Of a DNA stretch of 24,736 nt, positions 11,458 through 17,677 are shown one piece after another. The stretch is from contig CACZQU010000332.1 of NCBI GenBank assembly GCA_902783305.1, positions 1-24,736 of the forward strand, written 5' to 3'. Under the pieces are notes generated by a model that worked only from the letters and a program-made list of their open reading frames with translations, had not been told where the DNA came from and made no database searches. This DNA is from an uncultured Lachnospiraceae bacterium. Its GTDB lineage: Bacteria > Bacillota > Clostridia > Lachnospirales > Lachnospiraceae. Positions within the stretch are counted from its first letter, which is position 1. Each line of letters starts with the position of its first letter. The translations under genes and the position numbers were made by a program.

Positions 11458-12327
11458 TTACCAGGTCGTCACTTCGCATCCGTCCTGCGTGACAAGAACC
11501 GTGACCTCCCACTGGGCAGAGGATAGGCCGTCTGCAGTCCGGACCGTCCATCCATCCTCTTCATCGACATAGACATCACTGGTTCCCATATTGATCATCG
11601 GTTCAATGGTAAACATCATGCCGGGAACCATCAGCACCCCTTTGCCCCGCTCAGAGACATAGCTGACCCAGGGATCCTCGTGAAATTCAAGGCCAACCCC
11701 GTGTCCTCCGATTTCTTCCACGACAGAGAATCCATTTGCTTTCGCATGCTCATGAACGGCACTGCCCATATTACCAATCGGCTCCCATGGACGGACCTGC
11801 TCCACGCCAAGCTTCACGCATTCCCGGGTTACCTCCACCAGCCGCTTTTTCTCTGGTGAGACTTCTCCGATACAAAACATCCGGGAAGAATCCGAAAAAT
11901 AACCATTCAGAATCGTAGAGACATCCACATTGACAATATCTCCAGACTGCAAAATCACACTGTCATCCGGAATCCCATGGCAGACGACTTCGTTAATGGA
12001 AGTGCAGACGCTTCTGGGATATCCCTGAAAGTTCAGAGGAGCAGGGACTGCTCCGTATTTTTCACTGATCCGGCTGACCCACCGGTCGATCTCGCCGGTA
12101 GAAATCCCTTCCCGGATATGATTCTCCACATAGTCCAGGATTTCAATATTGATTTTACAGCTTTCCCGGATTTTTTCGATCTGAGCAGACGTTTTTATCC
12201 AGCTGCGCTCAGGCACGGGAATTCCGGCCAGAGCGTATTTTTCCAGCTTCTCGTCAAACGCCGCATGACATTGCTTGTATTTCCTCCCGCTGCCGCACCA
12301 GCAGGGTTCATTTCTTCCTGTTTTCAT
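11458..12327 (-). CDS. map: Methionine aminopeptidase with N-terminal SEC-C zinc motif
   Basis: Type I methionine aminopeptidase removes the initiator Met from nascent proteins. In 289 residues the five metal ligands are found: Asp135 (VDVS), Asp146 (YFSDSS), His209 (GGHGVG), Glu242 (TIEPM) and Glu274 (SAQWEVT). The substrate-contact residues His117 (VVCHGIP) and His216 (EFHEDP) are also present. Residues 1-22 form a SEC-C motif, CxCGSGRKYKQCH (Cys9, Cys11, Cys20, His21), a zinc-binding element also found at the end of SecA that probably helps the enzyme dock at the ribosome. The start is placed where the SEC-C motif begins; the ribosome binding site is weak (ACAGAAG), suggesting coupling to the OmpA-domain gene 9 bp upstream. 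Confidence 0.95.
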   Translation of the reverse strand: MKTGRNEPCWCGSGRKYKQCHAAFDEKLEKYALAGIPVPERSWIKTSAQIEKIRESCKINIEILDYVENHIREGISTGEIDRWVSRISEKYGAVPAPLNFQGYPRSVCTSINEVVCHGIPDDSVILQSGDIVNVDVSTILNGYFSDSSRMFCIGEVSPEKKRLVEVTRECVKLGVEQVRPWEPIGNMGSAVHEHAKANGFSVVEEIGGHGVGLEFHEDPWVSYVSERGKGVLMVPGMMFTIEPMINMGTSDVYVDEEDGWTVRTADGLSSAQWEVTVLVTQDGCEVTTW

Positions 12328-12336
12328 CTTCTGTAC

Positions 12337-13359
12337 TCAGGACCCCATAATATCATTCAATTCCTGGATCATTTCGTCATCCTTCAGGCGGAACTTCACT
12401 TCGACACGCCTGGAGGCATCCTTATTAACACTTCCGTCGGCGTTCAGGATCGGATTGGACATAGAATGACCGTTGACGGTCAGATAATCCTCCAGATCCG
12501 CGGATTCCCTCCGGCTCAGGAACTCATCCTGAATATCCAGCAGATATTCCGCCACAGCAAGCGACCGCTGCTGGGAAAGCTCCAGGTTGTAGCCATAATC
12601 ACCATCGGTATCGGTATATCCGTCGATAATGATCTCTGCCAGATACCCTTTGTAATCATCGCTAAGCAAGACCTTGCAGTAAATCGGAAGAACATCCCTG
12701 AGCGCTTCTTCTCCTTCTTCCGTCAGTTCGGCATCGTCGACATCAAACATGACGTTGGCATCCAGAGTCAAGGCTCCGGTTTTGGAATCGATGTTTACAT
12801 TGACATCCTGAGCGCGGAATTCCTTCTTCAGGGATTCCACCACCTCTGATTTCACGCCGATGATCCGGTCGATTTTGGTCTGCTGTTCTCTGAGTAAAGC
12901 CGTCTTTTCATCGATTTCCGCCTGAGAGACCGCCAGCAGCGCCTCCTGTTCATTTAATGTCGTTTCCTGATTCGTCAGCTGCACAGCCTGGGCATTCAGC
13001 TTTTCCTCCAATGCACTAAGCCTCTCCTGCTGCTCTTTAAGCCGGGCGGCCTGCTCTGCCAGAAGGCCGCTCTGCTCCGACAGCTTGTCCTCCTGATCCC
13101 TGAGCTGTTCATCCTGATCCTTCAATAATCCTTCCTGCTCGTCAAGAGCATTCTGCTGCGCAAGCAGTTCTGCGGTATATTGTTCCTGAAGGGCTATTTT
13201 CGCATCCCGCTCTTTGATGCTCTCATCGTAGCTTTTCTGCGCCTGGAACAGCTCAACGCACATAATCAGGACAAACAGGAGAAGAATGCCGGCCATCATG
13301 TCCGAGTAGGAACGCCAGACATTAAATCCGCTGTCATCAGGCCTTCTTCTTTTACGCAT
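12337..13359 (-). CDS. OmpA/MotB-type protein with long coiled coil (ZorB-like motor subunit)
   Basis: A 340-residue inner-membrane protein built like MotB and ZorB. A short basic cytoplasmic end leads into one membrane helix (about 16-38) that begins SYSDMMAGILLLF; Asp20 is at the position of the proton-carrying aspartate of MotB. Residues 65-163 form an unbroken coiled coil with Leu or Ile exactly every seven residues and Gln at most +3 positions. Residues 190-326 are an OmpA-like peptidoglycan-binding domain (IIDGYTDTDGDYGYN, LSQQRSLAVAEYLL, KDASRRVEVKF). AAAGGAGG precedes the ATG, 11 bp after the channel subunit gene. It probably anchors the motor to the cell wall. The biological purpose is unknown; flagellar MotB is less likely because the partner has a very long tail and no flagellar genes are present. 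Confidence 0.85.
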   Translation of the reverse strand: MRKRRRPDDSGFNVWRSYSDMMAGILLLFVLIMCVELFQAQKSYDESIKERDAKIALQEQYTAELLAQQNALDEQEGLLKDQDEQLRDQEDKLSEQSGLLAEQAARLKEQQERLSALEEKLNAQAVQLTNQETTLNEQEALLAVSQAEIDEKTALLREQQTKIDRIIGVKSEVVESLKKEFRAQDVNVNIDSKTGALTLDANVMFDVDDAELTEEGEEALRDVLPIYCKVLLSDDYKGYLAEIIIDGYTDTDGDYGYNLELSQQRSLAVAEYLLDIQDEFLSRRESADLEDYLTVNGHSMSNPILNADGSVNKDASRRVEVKFRLKDDEMIQELNDIMGS

Positions 13360-13370
13360 GACCGCCTCCT

Positions 13371-15044
13371 TTATTTTCTAAACAGGCCGCTCTTGCTTTT
13401 CGTCATGGCCTTGGTCAGAGCAAGGATATTGTTATTCATTTCAGCCAGCTGCGCCTGCTGCGCTTCCATCTGTTCCGTGATGACTCTCTCGAGCCTCTCA
13501 AATCCTTCATTACGGGAGCTGCTCCCTACCAGTACGACATCATCCCCGCCCTTCGCCACGGAAATATCCGAGAGCAGAATTCTTACCTTTTCCATGGTCT
13601 TGTATGTCTGGGACTGATACTGGACATATTCCTTCATATTCTCATTAAAGGCTTCGGCAATCTCTTTATTGGAACGGTTGAGCTCCTGGTTGGAGCGGAT
13701 CATCTCCTCATTGGTATGGATCAGATCCTGGCTTTGTTCTCCGGTCTCAATAGCCTTTTCCATGGACTCCGCCGCAGCCTCCAGATACTTCTGCATTGCC
13801 TGGTTGCAGGCCACCCAGAATTTTGACGAGGTTTTCTCGGATTCTCTCATGTAATCCACGATGTGCTGATAATCCATCTGCTGCTGCTTCTGAATATCCT
13901 GGTTGTCCTTCAGAACCCGGCTGGCGGATGCAATATAATCATCCTGTGCCTGCATCAGCTCAGTGCTCATTTTCTGCAAGGAGCGTTCCTGGGCATTGTA
14001 CGCCTCTGCCAGCTGTTCACAAAGGGTCTGATAAAGACTGGCCGTATATTCTGTATTGTCTTTCTGCGCCTTCGTCATCTGGGCAAGGGCTGCATTGAAG
14101 TCACTGAACTGCATTTTGAAGGACTGATTCATCTGCCGCAGAAATTCATTGAGAATCGAACGGACAGCGTCCTCCTGAAACTGATTGACATTGCTGATCA
14201 TGACGTCGATGGACTCGCTCATTTTCTGGAAGGCAGGCGTAATTACCTTCTCAAAGCTGTCTGCCAGCGAGCTTGAAAACTGAGTCATCATCACATTGAG
14301 CATGTTTGTCTGCAGCTTCTGGCTGGCAATCAGCAGATTTCTTGACTCATTTTCCGCCGTCGGAAAAACATAAGCATGGAACCGCTCCATAAATGCCGTA
14401 TAGCTTTCCGACATTCTTGAGTAGGCGTTTTTGATACTGACCGTAAACGCAATCGAAAACGAGATCCCATAGATGGATGTCAGAAAGGCAACCTTGATCC
14501 CATCCACCAGAGACTCCACCGACGAAGTCATGGCACTGTAATTGGATGGATTAAACGCCTTCAGTCCCCATACCAGTCCAAGAAAAGTTCCCAGGATTCC
14601 CAGACTGGTAAAAATATCCGGAATGATCTCCATCGTCTTTTTGTGAATATGGATGTCGATCTCGTCTTCGTTGATATACTCTTCAAGATCCTCGATCCCT
14701 TCCACGCTGGCCGAGATGCTGTTTACAAAGCTGTCCATTCTGCGGTCGAGATAACGGTTGGAAAAGATCCCGTCCAGAACAGCCAGGCTGTGCATCTCAG
14801 CGCGCCCGGGTTTTTTAAAGATGGTTTTGAGCTCCTCCTGAGCTCTGCGGAAAGCCGAGCTGAAGGAAATGAGCCGGAATGTACCCGCAAACATGCCGCC
14901 CAGATAGATGACCGCCATGAAGACGAGAAAGACAAAATTATATATCATAACACCCGGCTGATCTCTGCCTATGTAGAAGGTCATGGCTGCCAGAGCGGCA
15001 GTGACCAGGAGAAAGAGTAATAAATTTGACAATTTTTTTCCCAT
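13371..15044 (-). CDS. MotA/TolQ/ExbB-type proton channel subunit with long tail (ZorA-like)
   Basis: A 557-residue membrane protein. Helices are predicted at about 5-25, 30-55, 143-163 and 183-205. The last pair (IFTSLGILGTFLGLVWGLKAF and GIKVAFLTSIYGISFSIAFT) matches the MotA/ExbB channel core. About 350 residues of mostly helical, Gln/Met/Ser-rich cytoplasmic tail follow (206-557), the distinguishing trait of ZorA, whose tail projects into the cell. Flagellar MotA lacks this tail. The start is ATG at 15044, because GGAGG stands 6 bp before it; an upstream in-frame start would add seven residues. With the OmpA-domain partner 11 bp downstream it should form a 5:2 proton-driven stator complex. 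No ZorC, ZorD or other Zorya effector lies in the window. Function in this setting is not known. Confidence 0.85.
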   Translation of the reverse strand: MGKKLSNLLLFLLVTAALAAMTFYIGRDQPGVMIYNFVFLVFMAVIYLGGMFAGTFRLISFSSAFRRAQEELKTIFKKPGRAEMHSLAVLDGIFSNRYLDRRMDSFVNSISASVEGIEDLEEYINEDEIDIHIHKKTMEIIPDIFTSLGILGTFLGLVWGLKAFNPSNYSAMTSSVESLVDGIKVAFLTSIYGISFSIAFTVSIKNAYSRMSESYTAFMERFHAYVFPTAENESRNLLIASQKLQTNMLNVMMTQFSSSLADSFEKVITPAFQKMSESIDVMISNVNQFQEDAVRSILNEFLRQMNQSFKMQFSDFNAALAQMTKAQKDNTEYTASLYQTLCEQLAEAYNAQERSLQKMSTELMQAQDDYIASASRVLKDNQDIQKQQQMDYQHIVDYMRESEKTSSKFWVACNQAMQKYLEAAAESMEKAIETGEQSQDLIHTNEEMIRSNQELNRSNKEIAEAFNENMKEYVQYQSQTYKTMEKVRILLSDISVAKGGDDVVLVGSSSRNEGFERLERVITEQMEAQQAQLAEMNNNILALTKAMTKSKSGLFRK

Positions 15045-15187
15045 TTCAAACCTCCAGAAGATCACAATGGAATGCCTTGCCTTTCAGCATAACATATCCC
15101 CATAAAGCAGATGTAATCCGGACTGTCCTTCAGCCCCTTGCGGACGTTACGTTTTTTCCCTTTACCTCCCGTCATTCCAGAGCCTGT

Positions 15188-15222
15188 CCCGCCGCCAAAT
15201 CCCTGAAGAAGCCTGCGGCGGG
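15188..15222 (-). terminator. GC-rich hairpin between pheT and the motor operon
   Basis: CCCGCCGC (15188-15195) pairs with GCGGCGGG (15215-15222), with a loop of about 19 nt, 38 bp beyond the pheT stop. No U tract follows on the minus strand, so it may be a weak or factor-dependent terminator, and the motor genes may be partly co-transcribed with pheST. In the rest of 15066-15259 I see only weak -10-like sites for the motor operon. Confidence 0.35.
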
Positions 15223-15259
15223 GCAGTTATGAACTTTCCTGTCATCTCAGTTAAGTTGT

Positions 15260-17677
15260 TCAGGAACGGAGCTCGATTCCCATCGCTCCAAGTCCATTCA
15301 TGATCTTTTTCATCGCCGCGGTAATATCCGCTTCCTCCAGCGTGCGGTCCTTCGCTCTGAAGACAAGGGAGTACGCAAGAGATTTGAAGCCCGGACGGAT
15401 CTGAGAGCCTTCATAAAGATCAAAGAGGATACAGCTTTCCAGAATCTTCCCACCTCTTTGAATAAGGATTTCTTCAATCTGGCCTGCTGTCACCTCCTTC
15501 GGAACCACAAGGCTCAGGTCCCTGGTCACCGACGGAAAACGGGCAATCCCGGTATATTTACGGTCGTAGCTTGCAAAAGGAAGGATGCTCCCGATATCGA
15601 TCACCGCAAAATAAACTCTCGTCCCGATACGATAGTTTTCTGATACCTGAGGATGAATTTCACCCAGGAAACCGACCCTGGTTCCGTCATAAATGATGTC
15701 CGCCTGTCTTCCCGGATGCAGGAAAGGCTTTTTGTCGGAAGGGTCATACTTCACCTTGTCGTGCATTCCTGCCTTTTCAAAGAACTCTTCGCACACTCCC
15801 TTCATGTCAAAGAAATCACCGTCTCCGTACATGCCAAGGGTAAACAGGGTCCGCTCATCCGGGAGAGATTTGATCGGAAGCTCCCTGGGCAGATAGACAT
15901 TCCCCACCTCATACAGCCGGACGTTTTTGTTCTGGCGGTTGAAGTTCGTGGAAAGGGAGGTCAGCATACCGTTCAGCGTGGTCGTACGCATGATGCTGTA
16001 GTCTTCTCCAAGCGGATTGCTGATGGTGACAACTTTGCGCAGAGGACTGTCCTGTCCGATCAGAAGCTTGTCGAAGACCTTCGGGCTTTCAAAGGAATAG
16101 GTCATTCCTTCGGAGAAGCCGCAATACTCGGCTACATCTCTGGCCTGGTTCTGGATGCGAAGCTTAAGCGGCATCTTTCCTGTAGTCGCTTCTCCTGTCG
16201 GAAGAGTGACCGGAATCTTATCATATCCATAAAACCTTGCGACTTCCTCTGCAAGGTCTGCCATACAATGAATGTCCTGGCGGAAGGTAGGCGCCACAAT
16301 CTCACCGGTGCTCTCATCGTAAGCCAGCTCCACCCGGGCAAGATACCCGAGCATTTCTTCTCTGGAAAGATCCGTTCCCAGAAGCCGGTTGATTTTGTCG
16401 GCGTCAAAATAAACCCGTGAAGGCTGCGGAAGGCTTTCACATACATCCACCATACCGCCGACCACTTCACCGGCGCCAAGCTCCTCCATGAGCTGGCAGG
16501 CACGGTCGATTGCCGCGGAGGCATTATTGGGGTCAAGTCCTTTTTCAAATTTACCGGAAGCGTCTGTCCTCAGACCGATCCTCTTGGCTGACAGACGGAT
16601 GTTTGCCCCGTTGAAATTTGCCGATTCGAACAAAACCGTTTTCACTTTATCGGTAATCATGGAGTTTTCTCCGCCCATGATTCCCGCAATACCTACGGCC
16701 TTTTCCGCATCGCAGATCATCAGGACATCGTGATCCACAGCTCTCTCCTGTCCGTCCAGCGTGACAAACTTCTCGCCGTCATCGGCACGGCGCACCACAA
16801 TCTCATGTCCCGCGATGGTGTCCAGGTCAAAGGCATGCATGGGCTGGCCATATTCCTCCATGACATAGTTGGTAATGTCGACAAGATTGTTGATCGGGCG
16901 GATTCCGTTTGCGGCGAGGCATCGCTGCATCCATTTCGGCGAAGGTCCGATCTTCACATTTTTCACAACCCTGGCCGTATATCTGGGGCAAAGCTCCGGT
17001 GCTTTCACGGTAACCTTGATATAGTCATTGACATCTTCCGTGTTTCCGGTTTTTTTCACCTCTGGCGGGACAAACCTTTTCCCGAAGGTCGCAGCAGCTT
17101 CTCTCGCAATCCCGATGACTCCGTAGCAGTCTACCCTGTTAGAGGTTATTTCATATTCAAATACGACGTCTCTCAGTCCGAGAGCGTGAACCGCGTCTTC
17201 TCCCGGAGCATGCTCCTCCTGAAAGATGTATATTCCGTTTTCAGGAGCTTCCGGAAACATCTCCCGGCTGCTTCCCAGCTCCTCGATGGAGCAAAGCATT
17301 CCGGCAGAGTCGACCCCCCGGAGCTTTCCTGCGTTGATCACAATGCCTCCTTCTGTCTTCTTTCCGTCATGACTGCCGGCTACCCTGCCGCCATCCAGCA
17401 CTACCGGGACAACCGCTCCCTCAAAAACATTGGGTGCTCCTGTCACAATCTGCACCGTTTCCGTTCCCACATCGACCTGGCACACGACCAGCTTGTCGGC
17501 ATCCGGATGGGGCTCAATTTTCAGGATCTTACCGATGACAATCCTGTCCAGATCGGCATCAAGCTTACTGTACCCTTCCACCTTGGTGCCGGAGAGCGTC
17601 ATAGCGTCCATATACTCCTGTGCATCCACATTCAGATCCGGTACATACATCTTTATCCAGGACATTGAAGTATTCAT
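15260..17677 (-). CDS. pheT: Phenylalanine--tRNA ligase beta subunit
   Basis: The large subunit of the alpha2-beta2 phenylalanyl-tRNA synthetase. The 805-residue length is standard. Domains run in the usual order: N-terminal part, EMAP/OB-fold tRNA-binding domain (about 40-150, IGKILKIEPHPDADKLVVC), B3/B4 editing domain that hydrolyses Tyr-tRNA(Phe) (about 205-395, RPINNLVDITNYVMEEYGQP), B5 domain (about 405-475), catalytic-like core (LAEEVARFYGYDKIP onward) and C-terminal ferredoxin-like anticodon-binding domain (PSVTRDLSLVVPKEVT to the end). The ATG at 17677 has AAAGGA about 13 bp upstream, longer than usual; an ATG four codons later is an alternative. It follows pheS after an unusually long 194-bp gap. 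Confidence 0.98.
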   Translation of the reverse strand: MNTSMSWIKMYVPDLNVDAQEYMDAMTLSGTKVEGYSKLDADLDRIVIGKILKIEPHPDADKLVVCQVDVGTETVQIVTGAPNVFEGAVVPVVLDGGRVAGSHDGKKTEGGIVINAGKLRGVDSAGMLCSIEELGSSREMFPEAPENGIYIFQEEHAPGEDAVHALGLRDVVFEYEITSNRVDCYGVIGIAREAAATFGKRFVPPEVKKTGNTEDVNDYIKVTVKAPELCPRYTARVVKNVKIGPSPKWMQRCLAANGIRPINNLVDITNYVMEEYGQPMHAFDLDTIAGHEIVVRRADDGEKFVTLDGQERAVDHDVLMICDAEKAVGIAGIMGGENSMITDKVKTVLFESANFNGANIRLSAKRIGLRTDASGKFEKGLDPNNASAAIDRACQLMEELGAGEVVGGMVDVCESLPQPSRVYFDADKINRLLGTDLSREEMLGYLARVELAYDESTGEIVAPTFRQDIHCMADLAEEVARFYGYDKIPVTLPTGEATTGKMPLKLRIQNQARDVAEYCGFSEGMTYSFESPKVFDKLLIGQDSPLRKVVTISNPLGEDYSIMRTTTLNGMLTSLSTNFNRQNKNVRLYEVGNVYLPRELPIKSLPDERTLFTLGMYGDGDFFDMKGVCEEFFEKAGMHDKVKYDPSDKKPFLHPGRQADIIYDGTRVGFLGEIHPQVSENYRIGTRVYFAVIDIGSILPFASYDRKYTGIARFPSVTRDLSLVVPKEVTAGQIEEILIQRGGKILESCILFDLYEGSQIRPGFKSLAYSLVFRAKDRTLEEADITAAMKKIMNGLGAMGIELRS

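Follow-up and report, generated by a model that had tools for sequence, protein, structure and literature searches.

A ZorAB-family motor without an effector gene of its own, very probably resident in Blautia

The window, that is the whole stretch of 24,736 nucleotides analysed here (contig CACZQU010000332.1, our contig C332), comes from an uncultured Lachnospiraceae bacterium, the genus of which is Blautia; the source assembly consists of 614 contigs and is 82% complete and 6% contaminated. On the minus strand of the window, two consecutive genes encode the A and B subunits of a putative wall-anchored ion motor, which is described here together with its relation to ZorAB, the motor of the Zorya systems of phage defence. 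The two genes and their parts are as follows (L and G numbers below denote loci and genomes of this analysis, respectively; the rows of the alignments and trees bear the numbers of their loci):

13371-15044, minus strand: A subunit (ZorA/MotA-like), 557 residues, with its ATG at 15044
14385-14693, minus strand: channel core of A (MotA_ExbB domain, residues 118-220), with T146, T153, T189 and S190 conserved and with ZorA, rather than MotA, TolQ or ExbB, nearest in the anchored blocks
13374-14366, minus strand: cytoplasmic helical tail of A (residues 227-557), predicted helices of low confidence, dN/dS 0.03-0.08
13800-13820, minus strand: tail motif FWVACNQ (residues 409-415), of which W410, C413 and N414 never vary among 13 aligned sequences
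13374-13394, minus strand: extreme C-terminus of A, KSGLFRK, with basic and aromatic residues
12337-13359, minus strand: B subunit (ZorB-like), 340 residues, matching the PADLOC ZorB1 model PDLC00609 with 222 bits; best fold match ZorB (8qyd_F, E 1.7e-9)
13300-13302, minus strand: Asp20 of B, presumed to carry the ion, D in 79/79 aligned rows
12856-13224, minus strand: long coil of B from the membrane helix to the OmpA domain (residues 46-168), predicted as a single helix and compared in length with other B subunits
12529-12750, minus strand: OmpA-type peptidoglycan-binding domain of B (residues 204-277), Pfam OmpA 44 bits, with a fold match

The gap from A to B measures 11 bp, and a GGAGG-like site, recognised by eye, precedes both starts; the list of open reading frames begins A at a GTG (15065), but the orthologues align with the ATG at 15044 instead. 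The MotA_ExbB match in A scores 33 bits, and each of the four polar residues named above is kept in at least 90% of 61 rows of the clade described below. In B, the MotB_plug match (13 bits) remains under its Pfam cut-off; the structural model shows a single helix over residues 16-167, followed by the OmpA fold, at a mean predicted local distance difference test score (pLDDT) of 84. An earlier note on this DNA, made from its letters, had proposed just this arrangement of two genes with an 11-bp gap, a MotA/ExbB core, a membrane Asp and an OmpA domain, and open reading frames, Pfam matches and the invariant Asp all agree with it; the tail of A, there put at about 350 residues, is predicted to be helical as proposed, at low confidence (monomer model, whole-protein mean pLDDT 62), and is about 330 residues long. 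All 14 C-termini of A that were printed combine aromatic with basic residues close to the terminus, in differing letters; in L130 and L135, the aromatic residue precedes the basic run.

Comparisons of sequence, of fold and of anchored blocks all place the pair on the ZorAB side and not with MotAB, TolQR or ExbBD, which upholds the ZorA/ZorB-like plan of the note. The PADLOC ZorB1 score of B, 222 bits, compares with 261 bits for a true clostridial ZorB of Zorya I; under the NCBIfam models, B reaches 96 bits for ZorB1, where the cut-off is 400, and A remains under the ZorA cut-offs. The fold comparison was repeated within the chains that Foldseek had ranked. The anchored blocks are ungapped and comprise 60 columns, with one MotA, one TolQ and one ExbB from Escherichia coli as references; the tree built on them resolves few forks, has a very long end branch for MotA and answers only the question of grouping with Mot, Tol or Exb, with the result that the pair, as the note had expected, falls outside flagellar MotAB and ExbBD. 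A full-length alignment of A with E. coli MotA was set aside as a means of rooting, the third helix of MotA having been misplaced by MAFFT.

The MotA/ExbB core is common to all of these motors, and MotAB and PomAB of the flagellum further share the membrane Asp and the OmpA-type anchor, so that the pair could be read as a flagellar stator or as an energiser of the Tol/Ton type. This reading is hardly credible and was rejected on the sequence scores, the anchored blocks and the near-absence of FliG: FliG_C is found in only one of 64 Blautia genomes (G008), and that genome lacks the motor; it is absent from the source genome, at its 82% completeness, which encodes a single MotA_ExbB protein. The pair scores low against MotA, which has a compact cytoplasmic domain where the Blautia A subunit has a long tail; it likewise gives low block scores against ExbBD and TolQR, whose B subunit is short and which act at the outer membrane, a structure Blautia is not expected to have. 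As to G008, it may be mis-binned, or may represent a motile lineage.

A tree of 79 concatenated A and B cores (IQ-TREE quick search, unrooted, with support from the Shimodaira-Hasegawa-like approximate likelihood ratio test, SH-aLRT, only, and with nine long branches flagged) joins the 14 Blautia-type rows in a single clade (SH-aLRT 99), which lies inside a clade of 62 of the 79 rows, formed by Lachnospiraceae and unplaced relatives (SH-aLRT 99). Zorya, represented in the tree by seven Zorya-type rows, lies elsewhere: bona fide Zorya I (the clostridial L068 and L164, the proteobacterial L177 and L179) and Zorya II (L178) are found outside the 62-row clade, and the plasmid row L180, labelled Zorya I beforehand, falls, like L163, together with Zorya II. 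Just outside the clade stand six rows from the same family (L150, L151, L152, L154, L159 and L161); no effector occurs among eight neighbour genes of five of them (L150, L152, L154, L159 and L161), which are metabolic, transport, HDOD and glycosyltransferase genes. The note had called the pair an ancestor or relative of Zorya; the tree, which has no root and sets the pair in a clade apart from Zorya, bears out 'relative' but not 'ancestor'. In the available text of Puente-Lelievre et al. (PMC12505986), ZorAB is omitted from the tree.

Zorya I ZorAB (Shewanella, E. coli and the clostridial L068 and L164) resembles the Blautia pair in the MotA-type core with a long helical tail, in the order of A before B, and in the membrane Asp and OmpA domain of ZorB; it differs in the zorC and zorD genes that follow zorB, in its place outside the clade, and in a B coil of 17-32 residues (four rows measured) against 87-171 in 61 rows of the 62-row clade. 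In L068 and L164, which come from the same order and class, the motor is accompanied by ZorC- and ZorD-like genes, and the ZorB coils have 32 and 25 residues. Zorya II ZorAB-ZorE (E. coli L178; Sulfuricurvum 8VVI) shares the motor plan, the membrane Asp and the peptidoglycan-binding domain, but has ZorE after zorB and is not in the clade; in L178, the B coil has 15 residues, and Gly occupies the position of T146. It is a guess that T146 might be the polar residue which Zorya II lacks and which would hint at sodium, this residue being unnumbered in the available text of the papers.

The B coil measures 87-171 residues in 61 rows of the clade, with a median of 111, and 122 in the window; L059, also within the clade, has 55. 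The seven Zorya-type rows have 15, 15, 16, 17, 17, 25 and 32 residues, the sister groups 80-94, and four other divergent rows 37, 78, 79 and 126. At 0.15 nm per residue, the 87-171 residues correspond to 13-26 nm, which is the range of the periplasm seen by cryo-sectioning in Staphylococcus aureus (16 nm) and Bacillus subtilis (22 nm), as given in the available text of a review (PMC8141598); according to the same text, other work by electron cryomicroscopy detected no periplasm in most species. The short coil of clostridial Zorya I counts against the coil as a simple ruler of the periplasm.

The motor is nearly universal in Blautia. In a search of the 64 genomes, 59 matched and 58 carry an orthologue, G023 being left out of the count as it has only the EAL-type paralogue described below; in four genomes (G027, G663, G007 and G648), the orthologue is present only as fragments at contig ends. 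None of the matches contains an internal stop. The orthologue occurs in 32/34 good genomes (at least 90% complete, at most 5% contaminated); the two good genomes without the motor, G036 and G645, have a histidine-phosphatase gene directly after pheT. Outside the genus, the motor is sparse: among same-family genomes, 16/299 matched (two Blautia, seven of the clade, six of the sister groups and one of the EAL type), and among class-level genomes 7/291, one of them the source genome.

In the window, the motor is flanked on the same strand by two genes, 215 bases separating the end of pheT from the motor:

15260-17677, minus strand: pheT, upstream neighbour and not part of the motor; found within 2 kb upstream, on the same strand, in 31/39 loci
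11458-12327, minus strand: map, starting 9 bases past the stop of B; linkage not conserved (10/30 loci, against 21/30 for rplS)

The remaining genes of the window are housekeeping genes by reading. Between pheT and the motor (15045-15259, minus strand), a GC-rich hairpin is possible (z -2.2, equalled by 4/200 shuffles), with no T-run by reading; in promoter and terminator scans the scores were near those of shuffles, and an Rfam scan of the window gave zero matches.

The 41 unique Blautia-type loci, of which 39 have enough sequence upstream and 30 enough for downstream counts, show a mostly stable position: besides the linkage to pheT, the histidine-phosphatase gene met in G036 and G645 lies between pheT and the motor in 30/39 loci; downstream, rplS occurs within 4.5 kb in the 21/30 loci given above, and the flanks of the remaining loci are rearranged. 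The order of pheT, motor and map, the conservation of which the note had proposed to test, holds for pheT and fails for map. The distances between A subunits and between B subunits correlate with those between PheT sequences (r 0.76 and 0.72, respectively; 29 loci, 0/5000 permutations), and the residence proposed in the note agrees with the near-universal occurrence of the pair at stable sites. Across the wider clade, neighbour sharing was tested automatically and pairwise by BLAST in 60 rows, scoring gene families shared within two genes of the motor. At tree distances below 0.3, 34/35 pairs share a neighbour family, falling to 85/122 at 0.3-0.6, 35/77 at 0.6-0.9, 12/171 at 0.9-1.2, 7/203 at 1.2-1.6 and 8/1162 above 1.6; neighbours being common among close rows and rare among distant ones, the motor is static within lineages and has moved between them. 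Labels given to the neighbourhoods by eye, in knowledge of the tree, cover 54/62 clade rows in 10 types and require 10 changes, one above the minimum; an earlier labelling with 11 types had required 10 changes, the minimum (at least 30 in shuffles), but had split one shared neighbour, a secreted transglutaminase-like protein. Because labelling by eye is flawed in this way, the statement on position is based on the pairwise test.

All parts of the motor, the tail included, are under purifying selection: the ratio of nonsynonymous to synonymous substitution rates (dN/dS) is 0-0.13 in every part and 0.03-0.08 in the tail of A (11 informative pairs, three of which reuse a row and in many of which dS exceeds 1 and is saturated; a twelfth pair, L144/L158, is identical). 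Together with the orthologue in 58/64 genomes, these values put the motor genes far beyond chance. They also contradict a decaying Zorya remnant that has lost its effector, which was rejected as extremely improbable; such a remnant would fit the missing effector gene and the loss of the pair from two good genomes, but not the low ratios in every part, nor the matches free of stops.

Effector genes stand directly after zorB in the Zorya loci seen in this analysis. No such gene lies beside the motor in the window, as the note had stated, nor did the searches, which covered ZorC, ZorD, ZorE and DUF2894, find a complete effector in the genus. The ZorE model matches 6/60 Blautia genomes, only as short fragments within its final 110 positions and with at most 44 bits, and none of these is the source genome; the ZorD model (E at most 1e-60) matches 25/60, over the helicase stretch only and with at most 275 bits where a true ZorD gives 1168, two such helicase-stretch matches being those of the source genome. 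In the 64 genomes, the ZorC model yields one fragment of 27 bits (G027), and DUF2894 (ZorG) yields none, ZorF not having been searched. In the source genome, at 82% completeness, ZorE, a full ZorD, ZorC and DUF2894 were not found, ZorF again standing outside the search. Beyond Blautia, 80 neighbour genes from 30 loci contain no match to a Zorya effector among the families listed (25/35). Matches of neighbours to PADLOC defence models (AriA, PtuA and others) were rejected, as they resemble housekeeping SbcC/ABC ATPases, some of the sequences having been read.

The motor probably resembles ZorAB in its working but, by the tests of locus effectors and of the tree, is not a Zorya system, and the Blautia pair is very probably an effector-less, resident motor of the ZorAB family. 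What weighs against this is that only known effectors were searched, ZorF not among them, and that, beside the weak ZorC fragment of G027, a divergent ZorC could have been missed, since the ZorC model gives a true clostridial ZorC only 59 bits. The same points speak for a phage defence of Zorya type with an unlinked or novel effector, in which the motor would sense a breach of the wall and the tail recruit the effector in trans, as do the common A/B plan and a ZorB1 score near that of the true clostridial ZorB. We consider this unlikely: the motor is nearly universal at stable sites where defence loci are patchy, the Zorya loci seen in this analysis carry their effectors directly after zorB, and the Blautia searches turned up neither ZorE nor DUF2894, nor a complete ZorD or a genuine ZorC.

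An envelope function of the motor has about even chances, and the same balance applies to the fuller statement that a wall-anchored rotary motor of the ZorAB family, resident and without its own effector gene, serves in the upkeep of the envelope rather than in phage defence. Wall sensing or remodelling is suggested by indirect signs, namely the OmpA domain, the very long coil and, in other genera, a small number of wall-protein genes beside the motor: of the 80 neighbour genes, five carry choline-binding repeats and three NlpC/P60 domains, a number from which, the background rate being absent, no enrichment is claimed. By analogy to the solved structures of ZorAB and MotAB, five A subunits would surround two B subunits, and ions would pass Asp20 of B against a ring of Ser and Thr residues in A; the two B subunits would form a fixed axle, held in the peptidoglycan by the OmpA domains at the end of the 13-26 nm coil, around which the ring of A with its tail of some 330 residues would rotate in the cytoplasm. 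Less confidently, the tail may relay the state of the wall, or a force, either to the membrane or to a factor whose gene lies elsewhere.

A long arm that ends in an OmpA anchor would lend itself to gauging strain, and, with no partner gene at hand, the motor might also be a protector on its own, in which damage to the wall pulls the arm of B and opens the ring of A, the resulting ion leak stopping growth without any effector. This appears quite improbable: a leak device has no obvious need for a constrained tail of 330 residues, and in the systems tested, the Zorya motor pair alone gives no protection. In the available text of the two papers concerned, ZorAB by itself is insufficient (PMC8565338), and deletion of any single Zorya component abolishes protection, the peptidoglycan-binding domain and the extension of ZorA both being required (PMC11890865). 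A search by title and abstract, which covered little of the subscription literature, found no report of ZorAB-like pairs in Blautia or Lachnospiraceae.

If the pair is indeed a resident envelope motor, then ZorAB motors are not parts of defence only, and a gut genus that lacks flagella retains one almost as part of its core genome; Blautia would offer a system in which to study a wall-anchored rotary motor in the absence of both flagellum and phage effector. For tools that find defence systems, the 222 bits given by PADLOC ZorB1 to a resident protein call for caution. More tentatively, and with rather more doubt than confidence, the ZorAB-type motors of Lachnospiraceae might be seen as a resident class of envelope-anchored rotary motors with an exchangeable tail (a helical rod in Blautia, an EAL domain in the paralogue, effector-recruiting rods in Zorya), with the Blautia pair as a mechanosensor that reads the Gram-positive wall from across the periplasm and Zorya defence as one specialised use of this class of envelope-sensing motors; Zorya would then be one among several uses of a single class. 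The tail is here treated as a module because the A subunit of the paralogue has an EAL domain in place of the rod.

This EAL-type second motor occurs, by score, in 9/64 Blautia genomes and in two other genomes (L060-L066, L156 and L162). Its A subunit, as in L061:9137-10696, is MotA-like and fused to an EAL domain in 8/8 scanned (99-187 bits); the DDFG motif is apparently degenerate in the three sequences read, which makes a receptor of cyclic di-GMP likely. The B subunit keeps the Asp of the membrane helix in 9/9 printed and has, by reading, a second membrane helix at its end; in L061, the one scanned, SpaA/Cna-B repeats take the place of OmpA. A Wzz/BY-kinase-like gene comes next, and L060 and L061 also have a GGDEF gene on the upstream side, so that the pair looks like an ion motor controlled by cyclic di-GMP in an exopolysaccharide locus; no literature on such a motor in such a locus was found among the best 10 of 111 matches.

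Other motor loci were met along with these. The pairs at L069:111-4164 and L166:10971-14372 are very divergent MotA/MotB-like pairs of other families and adjoin large proteins (1009, 334 and 1133 residues) without a Pfam match. At L067:176-10498 (G014), a short MotA-like gene and a ZorB-like gene are followed by those of a vWA-FHA protein, a PP2C-like phosphatase (by reading) and an FtsK/SpoIIIE protein of 1493 residues, an assembly that calls to mind a locus for type VII secretion. Finally, at L059:2560-10890 (G030), the second ZorAB-like pair of a Blautia genome adjoins a HerA/DUF87-type ATPase of 905 residues and two further proteins of 587 and 361 residues without a Pfam match, which makes this a candidate defence locus.

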